Positions 1 through 17,510 of a stretch of DNA of 50,761 nt are shown in pieces. The notes below the pieces were generated by a model, which saw only the letters and a program-made list of their open reading frames with translations, was not told the origin of the DNA and did not search any database. Made by a program: the position numbers and the translations under genes. The stretch comes from a virus. Within the stretch, counting starts at the first letter, position 1, and every line of letters starts with the position of its first letter. Location of the stretch: IMG/VR virus record IMGVR_UViG_3300046821_000457, positions 1 to 50,761 of that record. One strand, 5' to 3'.

Positions 1-315
1 ATGACTAAACGTAATTTATTTGATGAACTGATGGAAGGTGTGGATTCGCTGCAAGCAGAACGAGAAGGCAAAGTGACATTAAAGCGAGTAACCCTGCAAA
101 AAGTAGCAGAACCTCAAATTACTTCTGATGAAATTCTGACTTTACGCCAAACTAAGAATCTTTCACGTCCGGTCTTTGCCCATGTAATTCGTACTAATCC
201 CAGAACCTTAGAAAGTTGGGAACAAGGACGCAGTAAGCCCAATGCACAAGCCGCTTTGTTATTGCGACTGGTCGAGAAGTATCCTGAAACTTTGGAGCAT
301 CTGAAAAATTTATAA
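1..315 (+). CDS. XRE-family HTH protein, HigA/NadS-like antitoxin
   Basis: This 104-residue protein ends in a helix-turn-helix at about residues 40-100, with the motif LRQTKNLSRPVFAHVI followed by TLESWEQGRSKPN. That pattern is typical of HigA- or NadS-type antitoxins, which neutralise a RelE/HigB-fold mRNA-cleaving toxin and repress their own operon. In HigBA-type loci the toxin usually lies just upstream, which would be outside this window, so the pairing cannot be checked. The ATG is the first base of the window, so a start further upstream cannot be excluded. The next gene is 119 bp downstream in the same direction and is a phage terminase subunit. Assignment to the XRE fold is firm; the antitoxin role is inferred. 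Confidence 0.75.
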   Translation: MTKRNLFDELMEGVDSLQAEREGKVTLKRVTLQKVAEPQITSDEILTLRQTKNLSRPVFAHVIRTNPRTLESWEQGRSKPNAQAALLLRLVEKYPETLEHLKNL

Positions 316-434
316 CTTTAAATTTATTGCCATAACCAAATGATTTATCTTATTTTTAACATTAAAGTGTAGTGATTATTGAGAAACTACCCATTAAAAT
401 AGCTCTAACCAGTTCTAATTTAGAGGGTAATAGA

Positions 435-725
435 ATGACACAGGGCTATAAAACAGGCGGACGGGTGAAGGGTTCAATAAACAAAGCCACCGCAAGCATT
501 CGAGAGGCTGCACAACAATATACAGAAACAGCGCTTAAAACATTAGTTGAAGTGATGAGCGATGAAACCGCACCCCATGCCGCAAGAGTAGCCGCCGCTA
601 ACAGCTTACTAGATCGTGGACACGGTAAACCAAGGCAAGAACTTGATGTAGACCATAAGGGCGAATTAACACACCTCATAGTAAAGTTTGTTGATTCGGA
701 CGGTGACGGTAATGCAGTCGAATAA
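435..725 (+). CDS. Phage terminase small subunit-like protein
   Basis: This 96-residue basic protein has an N-terminal GGRVKGSINKAT stretch and a helical body with APHAARVAAANSLLDRGHGKP. That layout is common in short small-terminase or DNA-binding packaging proteins, which recognise viral DNA and hand it to the large subunit. The ATG at 435 is chosen over an in-frame GTG at 372 because AGAGGG lies seven bases before it. It overlaps the large-subunit gene by 14 bp, the usual TerS-TerL arrangement. The function rests on weak sequence similarity and strong gene context. It could also be a generic phage DNA-binding protein. Confidence 0.7.
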   Translation: MTQGYKTGGRVKGSINKATASIREAAQQYTETALKTLVEVMSDETAPHAARVAAANSLLDRGHGKPRQELDVDHKGELTHLIVKFVDSDGDGNAVE

Positions 726-1923
726 AATCACCTTGCCCGCTAAATTTAAGCCTTTTATGCAGTTAGATACTTATCGCTATAAAGTGGCTTATGGAGGACG
801 CGGGGGCGGTAAATCGTGGGGTATTGCAAGGGCGTTAATCATCCTAGCCGCTTCCAGAGAGCTGAGGGTATTGTGTGCTAGAGAGATTCAGAACTCGATA
901 AAGGAATCAGTGCATAAGCTCCTAGTCGACCAAATAGACACGCTGCAACTGAATCACCTGTTTACCATTACCGACACCAAGATAAGCAGTAAAACAGGCT
1001 CAGAATTCATCTTTAGCGGGATTCGCTCCAATATCACTAAGATTAAGTCAATGGAGGGTATAGACATATGTTGGATTGAGGAAGCCGAAAAAGTGTCTAA
1101 ATCTAGCTGGGATGTACTAATTCCCACAATTAGAAAGCCGCACTCTGAAATCTGGCTATCATTCAACCCGAATGAAATCACTGACCCTACCTACGAAAAA
1201 TTCATCTTGAACGCCCCCCCTAGTACCTTGCTACTGGCTATTAATTGGCAGGATAACCCGTATTTTCCAGAAGCACTTAGAAAGGAAAAGGATTACCTTT
1301 ACCGTGTTAGTCCCGACGACGCGGCGCACATTTGGGGCGGACAGTGCAAGCAAAACAGTGACGCACAAGTACTTAAGGGCAAGTACACGGTTGAATGGTT
1401 TGAGCCTAAATCACATTGGGACGGGGCGTATTATGGCGCTGATTGGGGTTTTAGTGTTGACCCTACCACGCTTATTGAATGCTACATCGAGGACAGAACG
1501 CTTTATATTCACCAAGAAGCGTACGGTATTGGGATTGACACGGACTACTTACCCGCTCTCTTTGAACAATTGCCCGATGCTAAGCACCACGTAATACGCG
1601 CTGATAATGCACGACCTGAAATCATTAGCTATTTGCAGCGCAATGGATATCCTCACATAGAGTCAGTCACTAAGTGGTCAGGTAGTGTCGAGGATGGTAT
1701 TGGGAGGCTACGCAGCTTTGAACGTATCGTTATACATCCCGACTGTACCCATACCATCGAAGAAGCACGGCTTTGGAGCTATAAAACCGACCGACTCACA
1801 GGTGATATTATGCCTGTGCTCATAGACGCACATAATCATTGCTGGGACGCCATTCGATACGCACTAGAACCAATTATTAGGGAACAGGGATATACCTATT
1901 TTGAGGATATAAGCCCTTATTAA
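712..1923 (+). CDS. Phage terminase large subunit (PBSX type)
   Basis: This 403-residue packaging motor has a Walker A loop GGRGGGKS at residues 28-35 and a Walker B-like ICWIEEAEK near residue 121. A C-terminal RNase H-like nuclease follows, beginning at GADWGFSVDPT near residue 242, with ADNARPE and a late HNHCWDAIRYAL segment. Length and motif order match complete PBSX/P22-like large terminases, which cut concatemeric DNA and pump it into proheads. The ATG at 712 overlaps the small-subunit gene, with GGTGACGG just upstream. No portal, protease or capsid gene follows; the next 167 bp are non-coding and then a long repeat begins. The gene looks intact, so it could serve a satellite or be a remnant of a disrupted phage. 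Confidence 0.93.
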   Translation: MQSNKITLPAKFKPFMQLDTYRYKVAYGGRGGGKSWGIARALIILAASRELRVLCAREIQNSIKESVHKLLVDQIDTLQLNHLFTITDTKISSKTGSEFIFSGIRSNITKIKSMEGIDICWIEEAEKVSKSSWDVLIPTIRKPHSEIWLSFNPNEITDPTYEKFILNAPPSTLLLAINWQDNPYFPEALRKEKDYLYRVSPDDAAHIWGGQCKQNSDAQVLKGKYTVEWFEPKSHWDGAYYGADWGFSVDPTTLIECYIEDRTLYIHQEAYGIGIDTDYLPALFEQLPDAKHHVIRADNARPEIISYLQRNGYPHIESVTKWSGSVEDGIGRLRSFERIVIHPDCTHTIEEARLWSYKTDRLTGDIMPVLIDAHNHCWDAIRYALEPIIREQGYTYFEDISPY

Positions 1924-2090
1924 TGGTAAAATTAATAATCATTAAATTTTTCAATAGTTGCTTCAACTATCCAAGATTATTTGACAGTTCAAAACCACGA
2001 AAAACGTTGTTTTTAGGATTATCAATCATTTAGCTTGTACCTAGTAGGGAGCTGCACCCACTAACCTAACGTTACGAATTAACGACTCTA
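1924..2090. other. Non-coding gap after the terminase gene
   Basis: This AT-rich stretch holds no credible gene. A short hairpin at 2000-2014 (AAAAAC-GTT-GTTTTT) could act as a weak terminator for the terminase genes. The long GAGTA-rich repeat begins at about 2091. Confidence 0.5.
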
Positions 2091-2315
2091 AAAAGTATTT
2101 TCTTACTCTTTTTACTCTTTTACTCTTTTACTCCCTAAAAAGTACTGTTTTTCCTTTAACTATCAGTCACTTAGAGAGACACCATAAAAAGAGTAAATCG
2201 TACTCTTTTATACTCTTTTTGTTACTCGTTTTAGGGGCAAAAAAGGCTATATTAGCCTTATAAATCAGTAGCTTAATAAAAAGAGTAAAAGTACTCTTTT
2301 TGTTACTCTTTTACT
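2091..2315. repeat. Left copy of a ~225-bp inverted repeat rich in TACTC words
   Basis: This segment matches the reverse complement of 11213-11436 across nearly its whole length with scattered mismatches and small indels. Shared stretches include TTTACTCCCTAAAAAGTACT and TTATACTCTTTTTGTTACTC. It holds many copies of TACTCTTTT (GAGTA on the other strand) and a near-palindrome around 2277-2300. It sits directly after the stop codon of the leftward Arc-like gene, just as the right copy sits at the stop of the DUF3987 gene. Its role is unknown. Iteron-type replication origin, element end and recombination site are all possible. Confidence 0.88.
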
Positions 2316-2317
2316 CC

Positions 2318-2545
2318 CTACCCCTTACCCGCTTTGGCTAGTTCTTCTCGTATTAACTCCCTTACTCTTAACTCTGTTAGGACTTCTTTTTGTTCATCTG
2401 ACTCATGAAAAGAAGCTTCTAGCCTTAAAAGCATTTCAGCATTTAAAGAGCGACCTGCAAGGCGTGCAGCATCCTCTAAGCGCTCCCTCAATTCTTTAGT
2501 TAACCTGATTGGGTATGGGTGATGGCGTTGGTCTTCTTTACTCAT
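2318..2545 (-). CDS. Arc-like ribbon-helix-helix regulator
   Basis: This 75-residue protein carries an Arc-type DNA-binding segment, HPYPIRLTKELRERL, then ARLAGRSLNAEMLLRLEASF. In this family a beta strand from each monomer of the dimer enters the major groove. The ATG at 2545 is preferred to an upstream TTG at 2581 because the TTG start lies inside an AAGGATA repeat cluster that looks like the operator. No clear ribosome binding site is seen for either start. The gene diverges from a second Arc-like gene at 2664 across an 118-bp control region. It is probably a repressor of one or both directions of transcription. Confidence 0.8.
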   Translation of the reverse strand: MSKEDQRHHPYPIRLTKELRERLEDAARLAGRSLNAEMLLRLEASFHESDEQKEVLTELRVRELIREELAKAGKG

Positions 2546-2579
2546 AGGCTGGATTTTGTAAAGTGAATCATTTTGTATC

Positions 2580-2627
2580 AAGGATAATTAAGGATAGAAC
2601 TTGTATCCTTTAAAAAGATTGTATACT
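2580..2627. promoter_or_regulatory. Operator/promoter between two divergent Arc-like genes
   Basis: Three copies of a 7-bp word are visible: AAGGATA at 2580-2586, AAGGATA at 2590-2596 (one helical turn later) and the inverted TATCCTT at 2604-2610. The last overlaps a plausible rightward promoter with TTGTAT at 2601 and TATACT at 2622-2627, although the spacing is short at 15 bp. Such half-site spacing is typical for ribbon-helix-helix repressors, and both flanking genes encode such proteins. The binding protein is inferred. Confidence 0.6.
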
Positions 2628-2663
2628 ATTCACACAGAAAGATAGAAAGGGATAAAAAAAGAT

Positions 2664-2834
2664 ATGACTGAAAAAAAGCGACAGAACGCTTATCCAGTAA
2701 GACTAGAACCAGAGATAAGTGAATGGATAAAGGCAAAAGCCAAACAGGAAGACCGCTCTATTAACGCGGAAATTAACCGCCAATTGAGAAAGGCTAAAGA
2801 AGCCGACACACAAGCCACTGATACAGCGGCATAA
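2664..2834 (+). CDS. Small Arc-like ribbon-helix-helix protein
   Basis: This 56-residue protein has the Arc signature NAYPVRLEPEISEWIKAKA followed by DRSINAEINRQLRKA, so almost the whole chain is the DNA-binding fold. GAAAGGGA lies about twelve bases before the ATG. It is the first gene of the rightward series and stands opposite another Arc-like gene, with the AAGGATA operator cluster between them. The two regulators may compete for the same sites in a lysogeny-type switch, but that is inference. Confidence 0.8.
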   Translation: MTEKKRQNAYPVRLEPEISEWIKAKAKQEDRSINAEINRQLRKAKEADTQATDTAA

Positions 2835-2856
2835 CTTGAATCCATAAGGAAAAAAC

Positions 2857-3099
2857 ATGGAATACGCCATATACGAATTACCTAATAGCCTCGCAATCGC
2901 TTACAGCTTTGCACCTGAAAACGTCAAGGAACGTTTAGACAATGCCAATTTAGAGAAAAACTATTTTGACTTAGGTGAAATGCTTAGCTTGTATGGGGTA
3001 ACAGTTAATGAAAACACTTTAGACCCTACCCATGAATTAACACTCGCTATCGAAGAACAAGATAAGCCTAGTTACGAATGGGTTTTAAACAACCTATAA
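2857..3099 (+). CDS. Hypothetical protein, acidic
   Basis: This 80-residue acidic protein has no recognised domain. It begins with EYAIYELPNSLAIAYSF, contains a short helical stretch with ENVKERLDNANLEKNYFDLGE, and ends EWVLNNL. There is no signal peptide or membrane segment. AAGGA lies upstream of the ATG at a usual distance and the gene follows the small Arc-like gene by 22 bp, so they are probably co-transcribed. A hairpin follows directly at 3106. Confidence 0.6.
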   Translation: MEYAIYELPNSLAIAYSFAPENVKERLDNANLEKNYFDLGEMLSLYGVTVNENTLDPTHELTLAIEEQDKPSYEWVLNNL

Positions 3100-3105
3100 A
3101 CGAAA

Positions 3106-3133
3106 AAGCCCCAAGACGTTAATCAAGGGGCTT
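3106..3133. terminator. Hairpin after the first small operon
   Basis: The arms AAGCCCC (3106-3112) and GGGGCTT (3127-3133) pair across a 14-nt loop. The upstream side is A-rich but no T-run follows on the plus strand. It is a weak rightward terminator, a leftward one, or an attenuating hairpin. Confidence 0.5.
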
Positions 3134-3200
3134 AGTGGGTTAAAGAGTCTCGAACACTCCAAAACCCTTTTACATTTCAAACATTTAATGAGTAATTAAA

Positions 3201-3710
3201 ATGCTAGAAAATCATAGCACATCTAACCGTATAGAATCATCCCCAACAGCACCCGATTATGTCTTAAGACCGATTGAAACGGAGCTAGTCGAGGAATCGC
3301 TGATTCTGGAGCGCGTCCAAGGCGTACTAGAGCAGCTTAACGCGAATGAGGATAACGACCGCCTAAGCCCACTGTTTGAACTGTGCCTACAGGAACTAGA
3401 GCGCACTAAGGAGCATCGAGGCAGGGCTATTTTACGCAGCCGTGAACTAGAGCGTTTAGCCGCTAAAAATCCCCTACCCTCACCTGTTGCCCCTATCAGT
3501 ACAAGCGAGCTTAATCAAATAGGGCTAGACCTAGGCAAGATTCGCACTAATTGCATCGCCTTGATGCACTTTTGCGAGGATAGCTTCCACTTCAACCCAA
3601 GTGCGTTTGGTGAGTTGGACTTCAATAATCATGATGCTTACCTACTGAGTTCTAATGCAGTAGAAACCGCTACCAAGTGGGCTAAGCGCTTAGCAGAAGG
3701 TGGGGTGTAA
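3201..3710 (+). CDS. Hypothetical helical protein
   Basis: This 169-residue protein is rich in Glu, Leu and Arg in its first two thirds (for example VEESLILERVQGVLEQL and CLQELERTKEHRGRAILR). That predicts long amphipathic helices or a coiled coil, and a Ser-rich linker follows near residue 95. No enzymatic motif, signal peptide or membrane segment is seen. There is no strong ribosome binding site before the ATG. It begins a tight run of genes that continues to 5693 with overlaps or gaps of a few bases, so it is probably part of one operon with the downstream membrane proteins. Confidence 0.6.
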   Translation: MLENHSTSNRIESSPTAPDYVLRPIETELVEESLILERVQGVLEQLNANEDNDRLSPLFELCLQELERTKEHRGRAILRSRELERLAAKNPLPSPVAPISTSELNQIGLDLGKIRTNCIALMHFCEDSFHFNPSAFGELDFNNHDAYLLSSNAVETATKWAKRLAEGGV

Positions 3711-3712
3711 TC

Positions 3713-3943
3713 ATGTACCTACCTACCCTACGAACCCTCAATAACGCCTCACAGGGCGATATGCTAAACGAGGCAAGCATCTACCTCGAAATGCTGCGTA
3801 ATACCTTAACGATGGTTCACGATAGCGAACCGGATAGCAGTCATTTAAAGCCGATTCTCTTGGGCTTAGATTGCCTCATACACAACGCTAATGAGCTGAT
3901 TCAGCTTACCCTCACTCAGATTGAGGGGGCGCATCATGGCTAA
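3713..3943 (+). CDS. Hypothetical helical protein
   Basis: This 76-residue protein starts two bases after the previous stop codon, with a strong GGTGGGG ribosome binding site. The sequence predicts helices (LNEASIYLEMLRNTLTMV and LDCLIHNANELIQLTLTQI) and has no recognised family. Tight spacing and the overlap with the next gene indicate translational coupling. The function is unknown. Confidence 0.6.
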   Translation: MYLPTLRTLNNASQGDMLNEASIYLEMLRNTLTMVHDSEPDSSHLKPILLGLDCLIHNANELIQLTLTQIEGAHHG

Positions 3944-4121
3944 GCGTACTCGCAAACCTGATCAATTAGACCTTGTTGATTACATCCAAGAACAAGCCCG
4001 CCCTAAAGCAGCTTATCGGGAAATCTTCCGATCAGTCCGCTTGCCGGATGGTCGTCTACAGCACTTTGACTACAGTCATTTGCCGCCTGAAAAGCGCCCC
4101 CTCGTTTGGGTTGAGGTGTAA
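3936..4121 (+). CDS. Small basic hypothetical protein
   Basis: This 61-residue protein has a basic start (MAKRTRKPDQLDLVDYI) and ends LPPEKRPLVWVEV. The ATG at 3936 is chosen because GAGGGGG lies eight bases upstream; the gene overlaps its predecessor by 8 bp. No family is recognised, and the basic head could bind nucleic acid. It belongs to the operon that leads to the peptidoglycan hydrolase and the translocase. Confidence 0.6.
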   Translation: MAKRTRKPDQLDLVDYIQEQARPKAAYREIFRSVRLPDGRLQHFDYSHLPPEKRPLVWVEV

Positions 4122-4123
4122 TC

Positions 4124-4660
4124 ATGAGTTTTACCTATGCAACGAATAGCGCTCTACCCAGTATCGTAGGCTACAGTGCTTTAGGTCTTGGCGTATTGAG
4201 CGCGGGTTCTTTACTGTTTGGCGGACTCCCTATCATCAATGTGAGTGGTGGAGAAGTGGCTGATTTTGCCGCCAGTGCTTTAACCGCTATCGGTGGCAGT
4301 GCGATTTTAAAGAGCCGTGAACCTGTTGCCGCATGGATGGGGTTAGCGGTCATCACGATGGGATTGACTTATGCCAATGTGTCAGTTGATACCATGCAAG
4401 CCTCTCGCATGTTAGAGGCGGCAAAACAAGCGGCAAGTAGTGGGGTGAATACGGCTAGCCACTCAGGTATGCAAGTACTGGAAGGGAATGTAAGTACTAA
4501 TAAAACCAACCCTAAATACACCGCCGTAAGACCCCTTAATAAAGCCGAAATCGCTGAATGTGTTGCAGGCACTCAGGAATGGACGCAAACCCCTAAAGGT
4601 CGCCTTAATTGCTCTATTGCGAGTGATGGTAAGCGTTACGTGTGGAAGGTGCAGCCATGA
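4124..4660 (+). CDS. Predicted membrane protein with C-terminal soluble tail
   Basis: This 178-residue protein has about three hydrophobic segments in its first 90 residues: SIVGYSALGLGVLSAGSLLFG, ADFAASALTAIGGSAIL and AWMGLAVITMGLTYA. A polar C-terminal domain follows with two Cys residues (IAECVAGTQ and RLNCSIAS) that could form a disulphide outside the cytoplasm. The start at 4124 follows GAGGTG and lies two bases after the previous stop codon. Together with the next two genes it forms a membrane-facing cluster. The family is not recognised. Confidence 0.65.
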   Translation: MSFTYATNSALPSIVGYSALGLGVLSAGSLLFGGLPIINVSGGEVADFAASALTAIGGSAILKSREPVAAWMGLAVITMGLTYANVSVDTMQASRMLEAAKQAASSGVNTASHSGMQVLEGNVSTNKTNPKYTAVRPLNKAEIAECVAGTQEWTQTPKGRLNCSIASDGKRYVWKVQP

Positions 4661-4836
4661 ATAAGCTCATTAGCTACCTAAACCCCTTGTGGGTTTGGGT
4701 AATAGGCTGGTTTTTCATCCTGAATGGGGTTGCCTATACGATCACCAAAAGTATTACAGGTGACAGCCTCAAAGGACTAGGTTCGATACTTTGGGAGCAA
4801 TGGGCATTGTTCAAGGGGTTATTCACATGGCTATAG
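4657..4836 (+). CDS. Small predicted membrane protein
   Basis: This 59-residue protein has one clear hydrophobic helix, NPLWVWVIGWFFILNGVAY, and an aromatic second half (LWEQWALFKGLFTWL). The ATG at 4657 overlaps the stop codon of the upstream gene, and the gene itself overlaps the next one by 10 bp, so all three are probably translationally coupled. The size resembles small coat or inner-membrane proteins of membrane-assembled phages, but no family match can be claimed. Confidence 0.6.
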   Translation: MNKLISYLNPLWVWVIGWFFILNGVAYTITKSITGDSLKGLGSILWEQWALFKGLFTWL

Positions 4837-5693
4837 ATGCACAAATCATGAGTCGTTTAGACCGGATTGAATCCCAAACGAGCGAACTCTTAGCCCAAAC
4901 CGCGCCACGGATGCCCCAGCTTTATGCCATGACACTAGGGTTACTGCTATGCAGTACCCTCGACTATGTGCTGAAAACTCGTGATGTGCCTTATGTTAGC
5001 GAAACGTATGAGCAAATTACGGATTATGTCGGGAATGAATCCGCGAGCCTTGGTGTGTGGATAAGCGACTTTATGGGGCATGTTGACCGCACCGCACCCA
5101 GTGTTATGGCTGAAAATGCTATCCGTGGACTAGATCAAGTACAGACGTGTCGCTTGATGGTAACGCTAAGAGCACGAGAATCCACGCATGACTATAGCAT
5201 CGTGAACGAATACGGGTACTTAGGGGCGTATCAGTTTGGCGCATCCGCACTGGCTACCGTGGGTTTAGTGAGCACTCAAGCCGTACAGCAAGCGCATAAG
5301 CGGGTAAGGCAAGGACTAAACCCCGAACAAGGTGAATTCTTACGAAATAGCGGAAACTGGATAGGCAGTAGTTATCAGCATTTTCTCAATACGCCTTCAT
5401 TGCAAGATGCTGCGTTTATTAGTTTGGCTAATGTGAATGTGGGGCAAGGCTTTAAATCAAGGGCATTGATTAAGACGAATCCTAATCGTATTGCAGGCTA
5501 CATTGCCGCCGCACACCTCAAGGGGAGTGGTGCAGCCAATAGTTGGTACTTAAGAGGGAAGGATAGTCGAGACGGTAACGGAACTCGTACCAGTGATTAT
5601 GCCGAATTAGGGGAAGATGCTATCAATAGTCGAGTCGAATTATGTGGCGATAAATCCCTAATGAATGACTTAATCGACACCTTTATCCAGTAA
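4827..5693 (+). CDS. Membrane-anchored lytic transglycosylase-like peptidoglycan hydrolase
   Basis: This 288-residue protein has an N-terminal hydrophobic segment (LYAMTLGLLLCSTLDYVL) that probably anchors it in the inner membrane. From about residue 112 there is a lysozyme-superfamily hydrolase signature, RARESTHDYSIVNEYGYLGAYQFG, in which Glu118 is the likely catalytic acid. IAAAHLKGSGAANSW and a late GTRTSDYAELGED stretch also match muramidase-like proteins of phages and secretion loci. It would cut peptidoglycan locally to let a DNA or protein conduit through the wall. The ATG at 4827 overlaps the preceding gene. Two genes further on lies an FtsK-like DNA motor, which fits a trans-envelope transfer or entry role. 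Confidence 0.75.
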   Translation: MAIDAQIMSRLDRIESQTSELLAQTAPRMPQLYAMTLGLLLCSTLDYVLKTRDVPYVSETYEQITDYVGNESASLGVWISDFMGHVDRTAPSVMAENAIRGLDQVQTCRLMVTLRARESTHDYSIVNEYGYLGAYQFGASALATVGLVSTQAVQQAHKRVRQGLNPEQGEFLRNSGNWIGSSYQHFLNTPSLQDAAFISLANVNVGQGFKSRALIKTNPNRIAGYIAAAHLKGSGAANSWYLRGKDSRDGNGTRTSDYAELGEDAINSRVELCGDKSLMNDLIDTFIQ

Positions 5694-5732
5694 CGCACCC
5701 AAATCCAAAAAGTACAGCCTACTACCCCCCAA

Positions 5733-5759
5733 AACCCCGTATTTTTGTAGTGCGGGGTT
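5733..5759 (+). terminator. Hairpin between the hydrolase gene and the next gene
   Basis: The arms AACCCCG (5733-5739) and CGGGGTT (5753-5759) pair perfectly around a 13-nt loop. No T-run follows, so it may be an attenuator or processing site rather than a full terminator. Confidence 0.5.
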
Positions 5760-5807
5760 ATAACGGACTTATAACGGGCTACTTTTTAAGCAATTGAGGC
5801 TTAAACC

Positions 5808-6593
5808 ATGACTCCGAACACTCTAAAAGACAGTCAAACCGTACAAGAAAAACTCTTAGTTGAACTCAAAAAGGCAGATTTACGTAATCAAAAAGGGCGC
5901 GAATCTATCCATGCTCTTTTAATTAAACCTCATGCGGTAAAGCTCTTAAGTGACCATGTAAAGGCTCATAATGGCGACCGTGAGCAGTATGTGAGTGGAT
6001 TACTAGCCCTAGTGAATCATTACGATTGCGGCGCACCTATTGCCCTACGTGAAGTCTGTACATTGGCAGCGACGCCCGACTTTAGCGCTAACCTGTTACA
6101 AACAAAACTTATACCTTTGCTGGTAGAGCTAGGCATTATTTTACGTTTGGGTGAACGTTCTTATCAGTGGCAGATTGCCGAAAAGATTGGCACTAAGCCT
6201 ACACTGCTAGCGTACTTGAAACCCGTCCTTGATATTGAAAGTACTCAAGCCTTACGCAAACAACAAGCGATTACCGCGAATGAAGTGCGACTCTTAGAGC
6301 TAGCCCGTAAGCAATCCTTACTGGCTCAAAAGCGCAAACAAACCACGATGCAGGCTTTAAATGCTGCACAGGAAGCGGAACGCCTCGCAGCTTCTTTACC
6401 TACTACCCCTAAGACCTCACTAGATTGGGCAAAAAGCAATGCTATGCCCTTGGTCATTATGGCGTTACTAGGTGCAGTGGTCATTGGTGGAATCCTTCAA
6501 CCCACGGGTACACCTGCGAATAGTCCACAGTTAGCCCAACCAATAGCTCCTACTTTGTCCGTACAAGCCGCTAACGTGGGAGGTACTGAATAA
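5808..6593 (+). CDS. Hypothetical protein with C-terminal membrane anchor
   Basis: This 261-residue protein has a helical N-terminal half resembling a winged-helix or replication-accessory fold (IALREVCTLAATPDFSANLL, then LVELGIILRLGERSYQW). A charged coiled-coil region with many Gln, Lys and Ala residues comes next (about residues 140-200). One strong hydrophobic helix, AMPLVIMALLGAVVIGGIL (about residues 213-231), and a Pro/Ala-rich tail complete it. GAGG precedes the ATG. The stop codon overlaps the start of the FtsK-like gene (TAATG), implying coupled expression. It may tether DNA or the translocase to the membrane; this is inferred from layout only. Confidence 0.65.
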   Translation: MTPNTLKDSQTVQEKLLVELKKADLRNQKGRESIHALLIKPHAVKLLSDHVKAHNGDREQYVSGLLALVNHYDCGAPIALREVCTLAATPDFSANLLQTKLIPLLVELGIILRLGERSYQWQIAEKIGTKPTLLAYLKPVLDIESTQALRKQQAITANEVRLLELARKQSLLAQKRKQTTMQALNAAQEAERLAASLPTTPKTSLDWAKSNAMPLVIMALLGAVVIGGILQPTGTPANSPQLAQPIAPTLSVQAANVGGTE

Positions 6594-7795
6594 TGTTAGT
6601 CGGCAACTTCAACCCACAATCCATCGTTCCTAGCTCCTATAAATCAATGTTGGCGTGTACAGGTACGGTACTTAGCACACTGGCACTCACACAATCCGCC
6701 CCTTTAGCCGTAGGGGCATTAGGGGCGCTGTACTTGGCGAATCAATGGAGCACCAGAGATAGTCGAGACGGGTACTTGTTTGATAGCCCACTGGATGACT
6801 TGATTAACGAGCCTGAATCTATTGCCAACGTAAATGATGTAGTAACCGAACGCATTAGGAAAGCCACGGGCAATAAAGACCTCATTGCACTGGAATCTCG
6901 TAGTGCTCAATACCGCCTATTTAAAATCTCCACGGATAATCCCCAAGAACTCGCAAAAGCACTGCCTAGAGTGGCGAGTGTGTTGGGGATTGCCCCCGAA
7001 GAACTAGGCTTTATCCCGACGGCTGGACGTGATCTAAGCATTATTCTTGCCCCTTTGCCGCGTGAGGATTGGCAAGCCGTACCTTTTGATGATTCACAAT
7101 TAAAGCAAGGTGAATTAATAGGGTATGTGGGTTTAGATGTATTGGGTAATCCCGTCACTTATCACCGTAAACATTCACCTCATATGATGATATCTGGCAC
7201 GACGGGCGCGGGTAAAACCGAAGCCTTAAGAGCCGATATGCACGCGATGCGATTATCGGGATTAAATCCAGAGCTTTATATTATCGATATTAAAGGCACT
7301 TTAAGACGTGAATCTTGTATTCAATTCACGAATGAGATGGAGGTCGGACTAGAAATACTGGCAGAAATAAACCAGCGTGCCAGAGAAAGAATGCAGGAAA
7401 TTGTAAAAGCCGACTGTGATAATTGGTTTGAATATAAAAAGCAGTGTCCTGAGAGTTGCCCCCGTCCTATTTTTGTTTATGTCGATGAATATCCCCAATT
7501 ACGCGCTCACAATAAAGAACGCTGTGAAGCATTAATGAGTGAACTTTTAAAAGTGCATCGTAGTGCAGGTGTATTTATTACCCTAGGTATTCAAAAACCT
7601 AAAGCCACTGAAATATCCACAGATTTACGCGATATGCTCGATATTCGTTTAGCGCTGCGTGTACCAGACTCTACCGCCTCGCAGGTAGCCATTGATGCAA
7701 CAGGTGCAGAAGGGTTAGCAGGTGAAGGGGCATTCTTGTTCCGAGTCGGGGGCGATAAGTTAGTGCAAGGGCGTGGGGTGTTTATGGCTAAATGA
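6593..7795 (+). CDS. FtsK/SpoIIIE-family DNA translocase
   Basis: This 400-residue ATPase starts with a hydrophobic region (residues about 20-50) that can insert in the membrane. The motor domain has Walker A GTTGAGKT at residues 202-209 and Walker B IFVYVDEY near 293-300. The family-typical tail is GVFITLGIQKP, then LDIRLALRVPDSTASQVAID and AEGLAGEGAFLF. Such hexameric pumps move double-stranded DNA through membranes or into capsids. It is much shorter than FtsK and lacks a recognisable C-terminal gamma domain. No relaxase gene is near. The neighbours are a membrane-anchored protein (overlapping by one base) and a peptidoglycan hydrolase. It could move element DNA between cells or serve a membrane-associated virion. 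Confidence 0.88.
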   Translation: MLVGNFNPQSIVPSSYKSMLACTGTVLSTLALTQSAPLAVGALGALYLANQWSTRDSRDGYLFDSPLDDLINEPESIANVNDVVTERIRKATGNKDLIALESRSAQYRLFKISTDNPQELAKALPRVASVLGIAPEELGFIPTAGRDLSIILAPLPREDWQAVPFDDSQLKQGELIGYVGLDVLGNPVTYHRKHSPHMMISGTTGAGKTEALRADMHAMRLSGLNPELYIIDIKGTLRRESCIQFTNEMEVGLEILAEINQRARERMQEIVKADCDNWFEYKKQCPESCPRPIFVYVDEYPQLRAHNKERCEALMSELLKVHRSAGVFITLGIQKPKATEISTDLRDMLDIRLALRVPDSTASQVAIDATGAEGLAGEGAFLFRVGGDKLVQGRGVFMAK

Positions 7796-7840
7796 GAGAC
7801 CTAGCAACTTAATCACTAAACCACGATTACCCCTGTTCAA

Positions 7841-7948
7841 ATGGACTCTATTGCTAACCGCTGGCTAGAACGGGCACGAATGCAAGGCGTATTGAAATAT
7901 AACCCTGAGTCAGGGGTAGGGAAGCCTAAATACGTATTGAACGATTAA
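7841..7948 (+). CDS. Possible 35-residue peptide after the translocase gene
   Basis: The reading frame encodes a short basic peptide containing NRWLERARMQGVLKYN and ending KPKYVLND. This resembles the last helix and wing of a winged-helix domain. It lies in the same frame as the translocase gene but is separated from it by several stop codons, and the ATG has no good ribosome binding site. It may be a remnant of a lost C-terminal DNA-recognition domain or a chance frame. A strong terminator follows 10 bp later. Confidence 0.35.
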   Translation: MDSIANRWLERARMQGVLKYNPESGVGKPKYVLND

Positions 7949-7958
7949 CTAACCCAAC

Positions 7959-7986
7959 GGGGGCGGGATTAGCGCCCCCTTTTTTT
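7959..7986 (+). terminator. Strong Rho-independent terminator
   Basis: The stem GGGGGCG (7959-7965) pairs with CGCCCCC (7973-7979) around a 7-nt loop and is followed by seven T residues. It ends the operon of membrane proteins, hydrolase and translocase. Confidence 0.92.
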
Positions 7987-7999
7987 CAAGAGAAGATAA

Positions 8000-8566
8000 A
8001 TGGATAAGACTGATTTTTATTTTTTACCAATCCCTAATTGGGACAATATAAAAGATGATGAATTATTAGATTTATCATTAGTAATAAGTGCCATTAATAG
8101 TTTGCATCCATTAAAAGTACTAACTTTAGACTTGATATGGAGACTTGACCGTATACAAAGGCTTGGCTTTCAAATAGATGTAAAATTAGAGATGAAACCT
8201 ATTAGATATAATGGTATTCCTGTACACGACGCTATCAGAACCACATATAAGATAAGTAAAACTAATGCTATTAATTTGAAGGTTTTTGCAAACTCTCCTA
8301 GCCCTGATATTGATAATGTAGAAACCAAAACCGTAGAAATTGAGAAAACATTTTCACCAAAAGAGCGCAACTCTATGCTGTTAGTAATCTTAGGCATGGC
8401 TATAGATAAATATGGCTATGATCCAGAAGCGAATAAAAATCCCGCTACAGGCAGCAATAAAAACAGCATTAAAGCCAGCTTAGAGAGAATCGGTGTTTCT
8501 ATAAGTGACGATACTATTAAAAAATATCTCGAAGAAGCCATTAAAATTCAACAACTTAAAAAATAG
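8000..8566 (+). CDS. Hypothetical phage/plasmid accessory protein
   Basis: This 188-residue protein is encoded by DNA clearly more AT-rich than its neighbours, which suggests a separate acquisition. The last 60 residues (LGMAIDKYGYDPEANKN, PATGSNKNSI, then DDTIKKYLEEA) resemble a short domain common at the C-terminus of uncharacterised phage and plasmid proteins. The first 120 residues are not recognised. AAGAGAAG precedes the ATG. The gene sits alone between a strong terminator and the repeat cluster ahead of the AlpA gene, a typical accessory ('moron') position. Its function is unknown and defence or host takeover is only a guess. Confidence 0.65.
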   Translation: MDKTDFYFLPIPNWDNIKDDELLDLSLVISAINSLHPLKVLTLDLIWRLDRIQRLGFQIDVKLEMKPIRYNGIPVHDAIRTTYKISKTNAINLKVFANSPSPDIDNVETKTVEIEKTFSPKERNSMLLVILGMAIDKYGYDPEANKNPATGSNKNSIKASLERIGVSISDDTIKKYLEEAIKIQQLKK

Positions 8567-8601
8567 TTAACCGATTTAGGTTAGTAGTTAACCTATTTAG
8601 G
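8566..8601. promoter_or_regulatory. Direct-repeat operator upstream of the AlpA gene
   Basis: A 15-bp word occurs twice, GTTAACCGATTTAGG (8566-8580) and GTTAACCTATTTAGG (8587-8601). They lie 21 bp apart, about two helical turns. The junction also forms a palindrome, GGTTA-N5-TAACC. An additional inverted pair, ACCTGT/ACAGGT, lies nearer the gene. It is a likely binding site for the AlpA-like protein or another regulator of the replication module. Confidence 0.6.
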
Positions 8602-8662
8602 ACAACATCATTATTAATTTGTATAGCTTAAACACCTGTGACAAACAAAAACAGGTAAAACC

Positions 8663-8863
8663 ATGAAAGCACTCAGCTTTAATCAAGTATCAGAAAAAAC
8701 CAGCTTAAGCCGCTCCCACATTTGGAAGTTAGAACACGCGGGAAAATTCCCTAAGCGCTTTTCAATCGGAGCGCGTGGCGTGCGTTGGTTAGAGAGTGAG
8801 ATAGACGCATGGCTTGCCGATAGAGCACAGGCAGGTGATAACCGTGCAGACAAACGCGCTTAA
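8663..8863 (+). CDS. AlpA-family excisionase/transcription regulator
   Basis: This 66-residue winged-helix MerR-like protein has the AlpA pattern: FNQVSEKTSLSRSHIWKLE, FPKRFSIGARGVRWLESEI and DAWLADR. Members of the family act as excisionases or activate integrase and replication genes in satellites and prophages. It is the first gene of a module with a toprim protein and a DUF3987 protein. Duplicated 15-bp repeats lie upstream and a hairpin follows at 8879. Confidence 0.88.
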   Translation: MKALSFNQVSEKTSLSRSHIWKLEHAGKFPKRFSIGARGVRWLESEIDAWLADRAQAGDNRADKRA

Positions 8864-8878
8864 CCCCCCCAAATGAAA

Positions 8879-8912
8879 AAGCCCGCTATCGCTACCAACG
8901 AAACACGGGCTT
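8879..8912. terminator. Hairpin between the AlpA and toprim genes
   Basis: The arms AAGCCCG (8879-8885) and CGGGCTT (8906-8912) pair around a 20-nt loop, just before the AAGGA ribosome binding site of the toprim gene. There is no T-run on the plus strand, so it may only attenuate read-through. Confidence 0.5.
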
Positions 8913-8928
8913 AAAAGGAATTTCAGTA

Positions 8929-9861
8929 ATGAATATTACACCATCCTATTACCAAAGTCTCGACAATCTACGCACCACTATGCACAACCTGCTAGGTTTT
9001 GCGCCCCCTGAATTGGTGGATAGTGGCGCATTAATCCGCTTTGACACCGACAAGCCACGCAATAAAGCAGGCTGGTACGTACTCCACCGCTTGAGCATAG
9101 GCGGACTGGTTGCCACCTTTGGCGACTGGAAACAAGGCATTAGTCACAAATGGACTAGCTACACACAAGACGAACTAAAACCGAATGAACGTGAAGCTAT
9201 AAGACAAGCCCGACTCAAACAAGCCGCAATCCTCAAGGCGGAAACGGAGCGCAACCACGAAACCGCAAGGCTTAAAGCGGTTGATATGTGGACTAAAGCC
9301 CCACTTGCTAGCACTGCACACCCGTACTTAATACGTAAGCAAGTAGGCGCGTATGGGATTAAGCAATCAGGCAATTTACTACTTATCCCGCTTATGGATG
9401 CAGGCGGATACCTACGCAACCTCCAAACCATTGCACCCGATGGGACTAAACGCTTTTTAAAGGGCGGCATTAAAAAAGGCATGTTTGCCCCCATAGGCAC
9501 ATTGCGAGGCGCTACACGGGCTTATCTATGCGAGGGATACGCCACGGGTGCATCTATCTATGAGGCATACCAACAACCTGTCATCTGTGCACTGGATGCG
9601 GGAAACCTGCTACCCGTAGCGCAAGCGATACGCGCTAAATGCTTAGACTTACCTCTAATCTTGGTAGCTGATAACGACCGTGCGACCGCTCAAAAGACAG
9701 GGGTTAATGTGGGTATCACCAAAGCGCAAGCGGTAGCTGAATCCGTTTCATTAGTGACCGTACAAGTACCCTACTTTGAGGATAGCGCCCCCCTAGACCT
9801 CTCAGACTTTAACGATGCAGTGAATTACTACCGCACCCAAGACAAGCCACAAGTTGCTTAA
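8929..9861 (+). CDS. Toprim-domain primase-like protein
   Basis: This 310-residue protein has a toprim fold in its C-terminal half. The acidic motif YLCEGYATGASIYEA (about residues 200-215), LDAGNLLPVAQA, LVADNDR and DLSDFND provide the expected metal-binding Glu and Asp residues. The first 90 residues, with LIRFDTDKPRNKAGWYVL, resemble the N-terminus of phage-type primase proteins. It probably primes DNA synthesis for the element together with the DUF3987 protein. AAAAGGAATTTC precedes its ATG, and the same sequence precedes the next gene. A homologue in the same gene order lies at 14133-15116 in the neighbouring element. Confidence 0.85.
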   Translation: MNITPSYYQSLDNLRTTMHNLLGFAPPELVDSGALIRFDTDKPRNKAGWYVLHRLSIGGLVATFGDWKQGISHKWTSYTQDELKPNEREAIRQARLKQAAILKAETERNHETARLKAVDMWTKAPLASTAHPYLIRKQVGAYGIKQSGNLLLIPLMDAGGYLRNLQTIAPDGTKRFLKGGIKKGMFAPIGTLRGATRAYLCEGYATGASIYEAYQQPVICALDAGNLLPVAQAIRAKCLDLPLILVADNDRATAQKTGVNVGITKAQAVAESVSLVTVQVPYFEDSAPLDLSDFNDAVNYYRTQDKPQVA

Positions 9862-9875
9862 AAGGAATTTCAACC

Positions 9876-11225
9876 ATGACGAATCAACCACATAAAGCAC
9901 CCGTTATCCCGATGACCACTCTTAAAATGGATAAGCCTTGTTACCAAGACCAAGAACTAGCACTGGCTAATGTGCCAGTACCCGACGAAGCGTGTTTTTA
10001 CGGGATATTGGGGCAATACGCTAACTATGCAGCTAATAAGCAAGAAACTACCCCTATAGCCATATTAGCGCACCTATTGCCCTTCATTGGCACGTATCTA
10101 TGCAAGCCTTACGCTTGCCCCCCTCAACACCTACCCAAAACTCAATTAGTGCTAGGGGGCGTAGTTGTCCCCCCTAGAGTAATGACCGTCATAGTAGGGC
10201 TAAGCAGTGCAGGCAAGGGGACAGCCGCTACACAAACCAAACTCTTAACCCGTTGTATTAATAAGGCACTCTTAGATTTAAAGCTACCTGTGCCCATTTA
10301 TGCCGATGGTCCTATGAGCACAGGCGAAGGGTTAGCATGGTTACTACGTGACGAATCGAAAGACCTAGACAAAGATAACAACCCTAAATTTGAAGGCGTT
10401 GACGACAAACGAGCGATGATTGTAGAGGAAGAATTTAGCGCGTGCTTGAAGGCAACTAAGCGCGATGGTAATACATTTAGTGCAGCAATCAGGAGATTTT
10501 ATGATGATGGTTGTTATTCGCCCATTGTCAAAACGGCAAAAGCCACCTGCACCCATGCTGATTTAAGTTTTTGCGGACATATCACCCCTAGCGAACTACT
10601 CAAAGAGATTGACCCGCAAGAGTTTTATAACGGTTTTGCTAATCGTATTCTGTGGTTCTATGTGCCACACAGTGAGATTGTCCCTATCCCACTAAGCCCT
10701 AGTGATAGCGCCCTACAAGCCTTCACAGATGAGATAGTGCAAGCCATTCAATACTCGCATCATCAAACCAACCTAACCCTCTCAGATGAATCTATCCGAC
10801 TATGGGAAAACGTCGCCAAACGCTTAGGCAAGGCACGTAATCAGATGCTAGGGGAACGTGCTCGACCCAACGTTTTACGCATTGCCACTATTTACGCACT
10901 ACTAGACAAAACCAACCAAGTGCAGCCGGAACACCTCAAAGCCGCTATTGCTTTATGGGAGTATAACCAGCAATCCATTAACTACATTTTTGAGATGCAA
11001 CAGGATGACAGAGAGCTAGACATAAGCAGGGTATTAACGGGTAGGGAGCTAAGCATTAGCGAGATTAGGCTAACCGCATTTAACCAGAACATAAGCTCTA
11101 GTGATTTAGGGCAATTACTCAAGCGCATGGAAGGACGCGGCTTAATTGAGCGTTTTGAGCGTCCTAACGTCACAGGTAAGGGCAAAAAGGCGACTTGCTT
11201 TAGATTAAAAGCAGTAAAAGAGTAA
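9876..11225 (+). CDS. DUF3987-type replication ATPase
   Basis: This 449-residue P-loop protein has VGLSSAGKGTAAT (about residues 108-120) as a modified Walker A. MIVEEEFSACLKATKRDGN then AAIRRFYDDG, and a later GHITPSELLKE segment with FYNGFANRILWF, are all typical of DUF3987/YfjI-like proteins. These occur with toprim proteins in phages and genomic islands, where they are thought to act as replicative helicase or loader. The C-terminus has a winged-helix-like stretch (LTGRELSISEIRL and LLKRMEGRGLIERF). Its last codons lie within the start of the right copy of the long inverted repeat, so the repeat directly abuts the gene. Confidence 0.85.
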   Translation: MTNQPHKAPVIPMTTLKMDKPCYQDQELALANVPVPDEACFYGILGQYANYAANKQETTPIAILAHLLPFIGTYLCKPYACPPQHLPKTQLVLGGVVVPPRVMTVIVGLSSAGKGTAATQTKLLTRCINKALLDLKLPVPIYADGPMSTGEGLAWLLRDESKDLDKDNNPKFEGVDDKRAMIVEEEFSACLKATKRDGNTFSAAIRRFYDDGCYSPIVKTAKATCTHADLSFCGHITPSELLKEIDPQEFYNGFANRILWFYVPHSEIVPIPLSPSDSALQAFTDEIVQAIQYSHHQTNLTLSDESIRLWENVAKRLGKARNQMLGERARPNVLRIATIYALLDKTNQVQPEHLKAAIALWEYNQQSINYIFEMQQDDRELDISRVLTGRELSISEIRLTAFNQNISSSDLGQLLKRMEGRGLIERFERPNVTGKGKKATCFRLKAVKE

Positions 11226-11436
11226 TAAAAAGAGTACTTTTACTATTTTTATTAAGCTATTGATTTATAACGATAATATAGCCTTTTTTACCCCTAAAAC
11301 GAGTAACAAAAAGAGTATAAAAGAGTACGGTTTACTCTTTTTATTGAGCCTCTCTAAGTTGCTGATAGTTAAAGGAAAATAGTACTTTTTAGGGAGTAAA
11401 AGAGTAAAAGAGTAAAAAGAGTAAGAAAATACTTTT
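11213..11436. repeat. Right copy of the ~225-bp inverted repeat rich in GAGTA words
   Basis: This segment is the inverted counterpart of 2091-2315. It includes GTTAAAGGAAAATAGTACTT, AGGGAGTAAAAGAGTAAAAG and GAGTAACAAAAAGAGTATAA. GAGTA occurs about nine times on the plus strand, and a near-palindrome AAAAAGAGTAC/TTTTACTATTTTT lies at its inner edge. It starts within the last codons of the DUF3987 gene. The closely spaced GAGTAAAA words look like iterons, so a replication origin is one hypothesis. Confidence 0.88.
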
Positions 11437-11455
11437 CTGAAAGAGGTTAGAAACT

Positions 11456-11674
11456 ATGTCACTCCTAGCTTATGTTGACGACTGTATAAGAGAGATTCGA
11501 CAACCCAAACCACCTTCTATGACACAAGACGAACAAGCCGACTTTGAGGAATGCCTAGAGGAACGTAGCGCGATAATGGAGTATGAAGGCGGACTACCAA
11601 GAGGTGAGGCAGAATTGCAAGCGCGTGTTATCTGTTTGACGGAGTACCGAAATAGGAAGGGTATTAAAGCCTGA
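11456..11674 (+). CDS. Small hypothetical protein
   Basis: This 72-residue acidic protein contains EECLEERSAIMEYEGGLPRGEAE. A similar phrase is common in small proteins and primase tails of phages and islands. AGAGG lies ten bases before the ATG. It is the first gene outside the right inverted repeat and probably belongs to the left element's replication region. The function is unknown. Confidence 0.6.
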   Translation: MSLLAYVDDCIREIRQPKPPSMTQDEQADFEECLEERSAIMEYEGGLPRGEAELQARVICLTEYRNRKGIKA

Positions 11675-11738
11675 TAATCAGTAGGGTAATCACTGGCTAC
11701 CCTTAGCACCTCGAAAGATTATTTTTGAGGGAGTCAAA

Positions 11739-11792
11739 ATGCCAAAAGTACACCGCAAAGTACACCGTAAAACGGTTTTAGACCTATTTTAA
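11739..11792 (+). CDS. Possible 17-residue peptide with duplicated KVHRK
   Basis: A short frame (MPKVHRKVHRKTVLDLF) follows a good ribosome binding site, GAGGGAG. Its DNA contains AAAGTACACCG twice in tandem. It could be a regulatory peptide, the head of a truncated gene, or chance. Confidence 0.25.
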   Translation: MPKVHRKVHRKTVLDLF

Positions 11793-11810
11793 GCCTTAGT
11801 CCTAAAAGCA

Positions 11811-11845
11811 AAAAGCCTTGTAAGTGTTTGACCTACAAGGCTTTT
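11811..11845. terminator. Strong bidirectional terminator beside the tRNA fragment
   Basis: The 12-bp perfect arms AAAAGCCTTGTA (11811-11822) and TACAAGGCTTTT (11834-11845) enclose an 11-nt loop. On the minus strand it lies just after the tRNA 3' fragment, so it was probably the terminator of the original tRNA-Thr gene. On the plus strand it ends in TTTT and can also stop transcription from the left. Confidence 0.88.
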
Positions 11846-11849
11846 AATT

Positions 11850-11894
<45 letters not shown>

Positions 11895-12086: not shown

Positions 12087-13274
12087 TTGAGTGAGGTTAT
12101 AACGTTCACACAAAAACGCTTATCTTTGTTGGAAGTCCCCACCAGTAAGCGTGTTACTTATCGAGATAAAACTTTGCAAGGGTTTCAGCTTGTCATTTAT
12201 CCCTCTGGTGTTAAGAGCTTTTATGTTTATAAGCGGATTGGTAAGCAACCTGAGCGGGTTTTTATTGGTAACTGGCCATTGATGGATGTGGAGGAGGCTC
12301 GGCGTAAAGCACAGGAGATTTTAGGCAAGATTGCGTCGGGTGAGTTTGTGTTGCCTAAACAGGTTGTTGCCTGCCCTGTTCCGGCTCCTGTTATGAGTTT
12401 TGGTGAGTTATTTGCTAAGTACTTGGAGCTACACGCTAAGCCACGTAAAAAGACGTGGGCTGAGGATGAGCGCCAATATCGAGTGTATTTGCAGCATTGG
12501 GCTAAGCGTCCTATTGACGGTATTACTAAGCTGGAAGTAACGGAATTACACCAGACATTGGGGGATAAGCATGGGCATTATCAAGCTAATCGGGTGTTGG
12601 CATTGCTGAAATCGATGTTTGAGAAAGCTAGAGATTGGGATTTGTTGTTAGGCTCTAATCCTTGTAGTGCTACGGAAAAATTTGAGGAAGTGGCGCGGGA
12701 ACGTTTTTTACAGTCGGATGAGTTGGTGCGCTTTTTTAGGGCATTGAATGATGAATCTAATACGACTATTCGTGATTACTTTTTGATGTTGTTGTTTACA
12801 GGGGTGAGACGCACCGCAGTACTCAAGATGCGTTGGGATGAGATTAATTGGCTGGATAAAACGTGGTCTATTAAGCCGGAAAACGCTAAAAGCGGTAAGT
12901 CTCAGATTGTGCCTTTGGTATCGACTGCTTATGAGTTATTACAGGTACGGCGACAAAATGTAGAGGGTGAGTGGGTATTTCCGGCACGTTTGGGGGCTAA
13001 ACAGGGGCATTTGACTGAGCCTAAACGGGGGTGGGATAGGTTGTTAAAGCGTGCCCAATTGGAGGATTTACGGTTGCATGATTTGCGGCGCTCGATGGGG
13101 AGTTGGCAAGCTAAGAAGGGGTATAGTTTGGTTACGATTGGTAAAACATTGCATCATTCCTCCCCTGCTTCCACGGCTGTTTATGCGCGGTTAGATATTG
13201 AGACGGTGCGGGAGGCTATGGAGGATACAATTGAAACTATGCTCAAATTGAGCAAGATTAAATCACCTAGTTAG
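12087..13274 (+). CDS. Tyrosine recombinase, phage integrase
   Basis: This 395-residue integrase has an N-terminal DUF4102-like region (KRVTYRDKTLQGFQLVIYPS) and a core-binding segment near residues 110-210. Its catalytic domain shows Arg241 in TGVRR, His331 and Arg334 in HDLRR, the second His box at HHSS (356-357) and the nucleophile Tyr366 in AVYARL. It inserts or excises DNA at short core sites. The start is a TTG at 12087, supported by AGGAG seven bases upstream. It stands about 190 bp from a tRNA-Thr 3' fragment in the standard int-attL layout, so it most likely belongs to the prophage on its right. Confidence 0.95.
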   Translation: MSEVITFTQKRLSLLEVPTSKRVTYRDKTLQGFQLVIYPSGVKSFYVYKRIGKQPERVFIGNWPLMDVEEARRKAQEILGKIASGEFVLPKQVVACPVPAPVMSFGELFAKYLELHAKPRKKTWAEDERQYRVYLQHWAKRPIDGITKLEVTELHQTLGDKHGHYQANRVLALLKSMFEKARDWDLLLGSNPCSATEKFEEVARERFLQSDELVRFFRALNDESNTTIRDYFLMLLFTGVRRTAVLKMRWDEINWLDKTWSIKPENAKSGKSQIVPLVSTAYELLQVRRQNVEGEWVFPARLGAKQGHLTEPKRGWDRLLKRAQLEDLRLHDLRRSMGSWQAKKGYSLVTIGKTLHHSSPASTAVYARLDIETVREAMEDTIETMLKLSKIKSPS

Positions 13275-17202: not shown

Positions 17203-17303
17203 GCCTTGCGTTCCCCCCTCCCCCCTTCCTTTCTTCTAGTTTTTATAAGTACCTTCTTATTCTTATATTCTTTTTATCTTTTTAGTTCTTAAAACACCGG
17301 AAC

Positions 17304-17510
17304 AATGTTCACAACGTTCTCATGCCTTAAAAAAGACTGTTTATTCAGTGTTTTAGGTGTGAACATTGAGTTTTTTGTAATGTTCACAATGTTCTCAACG
17401 TTCACAAAGGAATGAGCTTGATTAGGTTTAACAGTTGGGGAAAAACAGGGGTAAGGCGCTCATTTCGTTAATGTTTCACGGAATGAGCGTTAAGATCATG
17501 AGTGTGAACG
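17304..17510. repeat. Iteron-like TGTTCACA/TGTGAAC repeats in a convergent gap
   Basis: The 19-bp word AATGTTCACAACGTTCTCA (17304-17322) recurs with one change at 17379-17397. It is followed at once by AACGTTCACAAAG. Inverted forms GTGTGAACATTGA (about 17358) and GTGTGAACGTTAG (about 17501) bring the TGTTCACA-type words to five in 210 bp. The surrounding 364-bp gap has no gene and lies between convergent genes, so ordinary promoter operators are less likely. A replication origin bound by an initiator is a reasonable inference. Confidence 0.65.

Follow-up and report, generated by a model that had tools for sequence, protein, structure and literature searches.

A probable phage satellite with its own terminase genes and two inverted iteron arrays beside a tRNA-Thr prophage

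Introduction

Known phage satellites either borrow the large terminase of their helper or make a capsid of their own. Satellite P4 has two separate iteron-bearing sites, ori and crr, one of which lies just past the alpha gene. The variable regions of P4-like satellites hold defence genes (PMC8628076), and the core genes of the phage-inducible chromosomal minimalist islands (PICMIs) include those for AlpA and a DUF3987 primase (PMC10803314). Origins of phage-inducible chromosomal islands (PICIs) lie directly 3' of the initiator gene and consist of an AT-rich stretch flanked by two sets of iterons (PMC6092414), and the satellite phiAH14b has been detected inside helper capsids (PMC4936722). Here we analyse the IMG/VR virus record IMGVR_UViG_3300046821_000457, the 50,761 nucleotides of which are called the window below, and describe an element at its left side (approximately positions 1-11849) that is likely to be an integrated phage satellite similar in style to P4, PICIs and phiAH14b, with its own terminase and a second, inverted putative origin. 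An earlier note on this DNA had confined the element to 2091-11436, between two long inverted repeats, and had proposed an integrative or satellite element that may transfer double-stranded DNA or use the capsid of a helper.

Results

The element combines AlpA, a Toprim primase and a DUF3987 helicase with small and large terminase genes (terS and terL), which adjoin the left inverted repeat on its outer side (Table 1). Matches in Pfam and PHROG upheld the assignments of the FtsK motor, the wall hydrolase and the AlpA-toprim-DUF3987 module made in the earlier note. Its remark that neither a capsid nor a relaxase gene is recognisable held as well, since searches of the element proteins against Pfam, PHROG and further families returned no match to capsid, portal, tail or relaxase proteins. 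This is the gene content of a phage satellite, with a primase and a helicase present and no virion structural match, in an element whose left end lies outside the record. The major genes, all described before as pointing to the right, mostly do so, but the Arc-like repressor is encoded in the opposite direction.

With terS and terL placed directly on the outer side of the left repeat, the natural unit reaches beyond the repeats and covers approximately positions 1-11849. Sequence to the left of position 1 was probably trimmed from the record, as the record begins on the ATG of the gene for a helix-turn-helix (HTH) protein; the record of a sister element (G001, described below) likewise begins on an ATG just left of terS. 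The right limit of the element is the tRNA-Thr fragment at 11850-11894.

The two inverted repeats (225 and 224 nt) are present at both edges of the 9-kb stretch, as the earlier note had seen, and are 94% identical (self-BLAST E ~1e-93), with no third copy detected by self-BLAST of the window. Each arm is built from an 8-9 bp unit, TACTCTTTT/AAAAGAGTA, repeated in tandem and in head-to-head pairs that flank AT-rich DNA, and 17/17 exact copies of AAAAGAGTA in the 50.8-kb window are confined to the two arms. The left arm contains eight TACTC[T/G]TTT units and two AAAGAGTA units, and short arrays in the arms were detected by a second repeat scan too. At its start the right repeat overlaps the stop codon of the gene for the DUF3987 helicase, and the left repeat sits after terL. 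The repeats are probably iteron arrays and putative replication origins, not the ends of the element; they are read as origins because the position of the array matches the location of PICI origins 3' of the initiator. Most likely, the right array is the canonical putative origin at the 3' end of the helicase gene and the left array is its inverted duplicate, a second copy. Near-identical inverted copies 9 kb apart would also let the intervening segment invert by recombination.

Two other interpretations of the repeats were rejected. They are very unlikely to be transposon or virus ends, since no target-site duplication flanks them, no transposase or polymerase was found, and the conserved unit extends past them to terS-terL, which also speaks against the idea that they are the boundaries of the element. 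The alternative raised in the earlier note, that they are scattered terminators, was dismissed as well, because the terminator scan called none within either repeat.

Arrays in a comparable position were found in other phages and satellites. When 42 toprim loci were scanned for array clusters, 12 reached the threshold, nine with the cluster at the end of the helicase gene and three with it elsewhere. In nine related contigs the array starts no more than ~20 bp from the stop codon of the toprim-helicase gene or of the following helicase gene; the units in these contigs differ from AAAAGAGTA, and some of the contigs are close relatives with a common unit. The array begins 52 bp past the helicase stop codon in phiAH14b (CTGTTCCCC) and 61 bp past it in the G001 element (GTGTTCC), and the helicases of these two are 33% identical. 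Among the detected clusters a position at the helicase gene end is common, and the scan gives no proof of universality. In the prophage next to the element (prophage B), an array begins 157 bp past the helicase gene and a second cluster lies near the far end. The clusters of prophage B (AATGTTCACA/TGTGAACGTT) are located at 17303-17512 of the window, after the helicase gene, and at L178:1009-1110, near the right attachment site (att). Given these clusters, paired origin clusters may be general.

The search for the same gene block in other genomes, which the earlier note had recommended, revealed a sister element with the same backbone and a different cargo in the isolate provirus record G001 (62.1 kb). 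Both elements have the common order terS-terL-arcR-arc-[cargo]-AlpA-toprim-helicase-array, followed by a homologue of the small protein encoded at 11456. In G001 the helicase belongs to DUF927, the cargo is unrelated to that of the window element, and the neighbour is a different prophage; FtsK and wall hydrolase are absent from the G001 element, no structural genes were found in it, and its two arrays do not form a long inverted pair. The differences between the two terL genes at codon positions 1/2/3 are 0.21/0.13/0.56, and because substitutions concentrate at third positions TerL is under constraint in both copies. Searches with alignments of arcR, the 11456 protein and terS returned no further element of this layout besides G001. 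One candidate relative (L270) was rejected, as it has the appearance of an ordinary phage whose terminase is a different one.

The sister element also carries a RelE-like toxin-antitoxin pair, which is placed between terL and arcR and bracketed by a 55-bp direct repeat (93%; L006:2261-2315 and 3383-3437). A small serine recombinase (L006:11261-11827) is encoded between the sister element and the integrase of the neighbouring prophage. A recurrent kind of large protein, with a coiled coil besides several hydrophobic segments, is encoded in these phages and in the cargo slot of the sister element (22499-23704 of the window, L006:5059-6519 and L088:9537-11081); the latter two are 27% identical, and no Pfam or PHROG family was found for those scanned.

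The genes at 2664-7795 of the window element look like one operon, with a strong terminator-like hairpin at its end. Its first small products (genes at 2857, 3201, 3713, 3921 and 4124) have one or more hydrophobic segments, the product of the gene at 4642 (64 aa) has one, and no relatives of these proteins were found in Pfam or PHROG. The N-terminal segment of the probable wall hydrolase is moderately hydrophobic, below the cut-off of a simple hydrophobicity scan. This protein has no Pfam match and is related to phage tail lysozymes (PHROG E 5e-17), among them those of Rhizobium phages (34% identity, E 6e-18). Its lysozyme-like domain recurs, more weakly, in hydrolases on small Agrobacterium plasmids, which carry relaxase, coupling protein and DotA/TraY genes beside the hydrolase. 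The searches returned no relatives of the 261-aa protein encoded next to it. AlphaFold models of the hydrolase and the 261-aa protein had low predicted local distance difference test scores (pLDDT 36 and 53, respectively) and were left out of the fold search.

The FtsK protein ends after its motor domain, with no gamma domain seen. Its nearest solved relative is the 'DNA translocase coupling protein' 6o1w in PDB (E 2e-17 versus 9e-12 for FtsK), which we take to be TcpA, the coupling protein of the conjugative plasmid pCW3. Neither the FtsK protein nor the DUF3987 helicase has close relatives in IMG/VR or among 84,980 species genomes, and an alignment search with FtsK returned motor-domain relatives only (22-29% identity), none of them with neighbouring cargo genes. 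The FtsK-hydrolase operon is cargo for which only distant relatives were found.

To the right of the element lies the separate prophage B. A further record, G002, matches the window without differences from 12396 on and extends past the window end, where it reaches a second 48-nt att copy within an intact tRNA-Thr gene and then a trmJ-like host gene (named by sequence alone). Because G002 carries this second copy, the region from 11850 to ~53.1 kb is prophage B, which has its own integrase and terminase. The integrase gene at 12087 was considered as a part of the element and assigned to prophage B, because it is also present in G002. The element is situated on the opposite side of the att of prophage B, as would be expected if the prophage entered the same tRNA gene beside the element; the att belongs to prophage B and may also have been the site of the element. 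In both this record and that of the sister, the element directly adjoins the integrase end of a full prophage (12087-13274 of the window; L088:12713-13954), and the two neighbouring prophages are unrelated in terminase type. Prophage B also contains tandem duplications at 42502-42737 (117 bp, 95%), inside the open reading frame (ORF) 42019-43212, and at 46339-46513 (81 bp, 98%).

Table 1. Features of the element and of the adjoining prophage B in the window
Feature	Position	Strand	Remarks
HTH protein (phrog_2104)	1-315	+	Left edge of record
terS-like small terminase (phrog_15261)	372-725	+	55-61% identical to G001 copy
terL, large terminase, Terminase_3/PBSX type	688-1923	+	76% identical to G001 copy
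Left inverted repeat, iteron array	2091-2315	.	Putative second origin copy
Arc-like repressor arcR	2318-2581	-	48-51% identical to G001 copy
Arc-like regulator	2664-2834	+	Divergent from arcR
Cargo operon, first part	2857-4836	+	Small proteins of unknown function at 2857, 3201, 3713, 3921, 4124, 4642
Probable wall hydrolase	4791-5693	+	N-terminal hydrophobic segment and lysozyme-like domain
261-aa protein	5808-6593	+	C-terminal hydrophobic segment 212-230
FtsK/HerA-type DNA translocase	6593-7795	+	Walker A GTTGAGKT; FtsK/SpoIIIE, Pfam E 8e-9, PHROG E 2e-39
Strong terminator-like hairpin	7959-7979	+	Closes cargo operon; terminator scan
Protein of unknown function, 188 aa	8000-8566	+	
AlpA regulator/excisionase	8663-8863	+	E 1e-16
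Toprim primase (Toprim_3)	8929-9861	+	E 9e-8; 49% identical to G001
DUF3987 replicative helicase/initiator	9876-11225	+	E 4e-13
Right inverted repeat, iteron array	11213-11436	.	Putative replication origin
Small conserved protein (phrog_22422)	11456-11674	+	Past putative origin; 71% identical to G001 over 38 aa
tRNA-Thr(UGU), 3' half	11850-11894	-	att copy at left end of prophage B
Prophage B	12087-50761	+	Separate from element; integrase 12087-13274, own terL 27272-28660

Discussion

Among 50,697 phage records, the closest named toprim primase is that of phiAH14b from Pseudomonas sp. ANT_H14 (KU708005; E 9e-43, 38-40% identical). Like the element, phiAH14b has AlpA, separate toprim primase and helicase genes, an iteron array just past the helicase gene and no capsid genes. 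In contrast to the element, it is 16.8 kb long, has an integrase and no terminase, and contains one array beside the helicase and no FtsK or wall hydrolase. P4 resembles the element in having two separate iteron-bearing sites, but ori and crr do not form a long, nearly identical inverted pair, and no family match to psu, delta, sid or epsilon homologues was found among the element proteins. P4 also shares with the element a primase-helicase and a cargo hotspot (PMC8628076). Gram-negative PICIs resemble it in AlpA, a primase/initiator, an origin of 3' iteron sets and, in some of them, a small terminase gene (PMC6092414); AlpA, a primase/initiator and iteron sets directly 3' of the initiator are all recognisable in the element at the sequence level. 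It differs from these islands by its terL, the second inverted putative origin and the FtsK/hydrolase cargo, and by an integrase not being seen. PICMIs have AlpA, a DUF3987 primase and no capsid-remodelling genes, as the element does, but they comprise ~6 genes, are located at fis and carry no terminase (PMC10803314), whereas the element adjoins tRNA-Thr, with no fis or integrase of its own seen. Of the genes that would point to a capsid-forming PICI (cf-PICI), it has terS and terL only, with no capsid or portal.

Because the element contains AlpA, toprim, helicase and terS-terL genes without structural genes, shares its layout with a sister and has its primase match in phiAH14b, a satellite that uses the capsid of a helper is the best supported of the possibilities named in the earlier note, although not within the bounds that the note had drawn at the repeats. 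In such a satellite, AlpA and the Arc pair would control induction of the element, and the toprim primase and the DUF3987 helicase would replicate it from iteron-array origins, with the helicase binding the arrays. Packaging of the element DNA into a helper phage procapsid would then be the task of its own TerS-TerL. The two putative origins would be arranged like ori and crr of P4 and enclose a variable cargo, here an operon with the wall hydrolase and membrane proteins that ends in the FtsK motor. Several points weigh against this assignment. No integrase is seen at 1-11849, the left end being outside the record; no helper was identified, and TerL of prophage B is of another type; one sister was found, which leaves two elements as the basis for conservation; the role of the arrays as origins and the use of two of them are read from sequence; and the AlphaFold2 models of the hydrolase and the 261-aa protein were unusable.

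The explanations of the cargo concern the operon only and are not alternatives to a satellite, and the likelihoods given here need not sum to one. Tentatively, the operon may be an anti-phage, exclusion or segregation device, which would act on rival phage DNA or the cell envelope and not in transfer. It fills the variable region that separates arc from AlpA and that holds other membrane proteins in G001, and comparable regions in P4-like satellites house defence genes (PMC8628076). The best PADLOC matches are the FtsK-type defence proteins SspH and Mads8, but these matches go back to nothing more than the common motor domain, none of the known defence systems is complete, and a wall hydrolase is unusual in defence.

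It is rather doubtful that the FtsK motor, the wall hydrolase and the membrane proteins form a conjugation-like channel for contact-dependent movement of double-stranded DNA, either as the only route or in addition to packaging. The relationship of FtsK to the presumed TcpA, an FtsK-type motor of pCW3, which also encodes wall hydrolases, points in this direction, as do the recurrence of the lysozyme-like domain on the Agrobacterium plasmids named above and the organization of the cargo as one terminator-closed operon with several products that have hydrophobic segments. However, the element has no relaxase or secretion channel genes; family searches of its proteins found no relatives of relaxase, VirB4, VirB6 or VirB8, and the FtsK/coupling-type ATPase is the sole candidate for a gene of a conjugative or integrative and conjugative element. 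The FtsK homology is limited to the motor, with phage and DndD-linked FtsK proteins at an equal distance, the FtsK-hydrolase set is missing from the sister satellite, and we know of no self-sufficient FtsK channel in a Gram-negative bacterium. This set may transfer double-stranded DNA, with support from distant homology only; the pointers in the cargo are compatible with transfer, but also with defence or exclusion.

For the element as a whole, a decayed prophage stripped of its structural genes, with G001 as a second relic, is also unlikely. The terS-terL order is of the phage type and no integrase is seen, as in a relic, but all ORFs are intact, TerL is constrained in both copies, and two divergent elements in different settings have kept the same order without structural genes. 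Still less probable is a two-way mobility, in which the element would package itself into a helper capsid and also pass double-stranded DNA between Gram-negative cells through a membrane-anchored FtsK pump and hydrolase, with the twin origins making or timing the transferred DNA. A 9.3-kb linear virus (tectivirus- or autolykivirus-like) or transposon with the repeats as terminal inverted repeats is highly improbable: the length and identity of the repeats would fit, and an FtsK-like ATPase and a wall hydrolase occur together in membrane-containing viruses, but there is no capsid, DNA polymerase, transposase or target-site duplication, profiles of a double jelly-roll capsid and a protein-primed polymerase gave no match (the predicted structures being too poor to rule out divergent folds), the repeats are iterons at gene ends as in relatives without terminal repeats, and the conserved unit includes terS-terL beyond them.

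We therefore regard the element as a somewhat unusual satellite of a known kind, with its own terminase, an inverted second putative origin and an FtsK-hydrolase cargo of unexplained role. A conserved terS-terL pair in the absence of capsid genes would represent an intermediate solution between borrowing the large terminase of a helper and making a capsid. The FtsK-hydrolase operon is a candidate for a satellite-borne device that serves transfer, defence or exclusion, and the position of arrays at the end of helicase genes offers a simple route to finding origins in phages and satellites.

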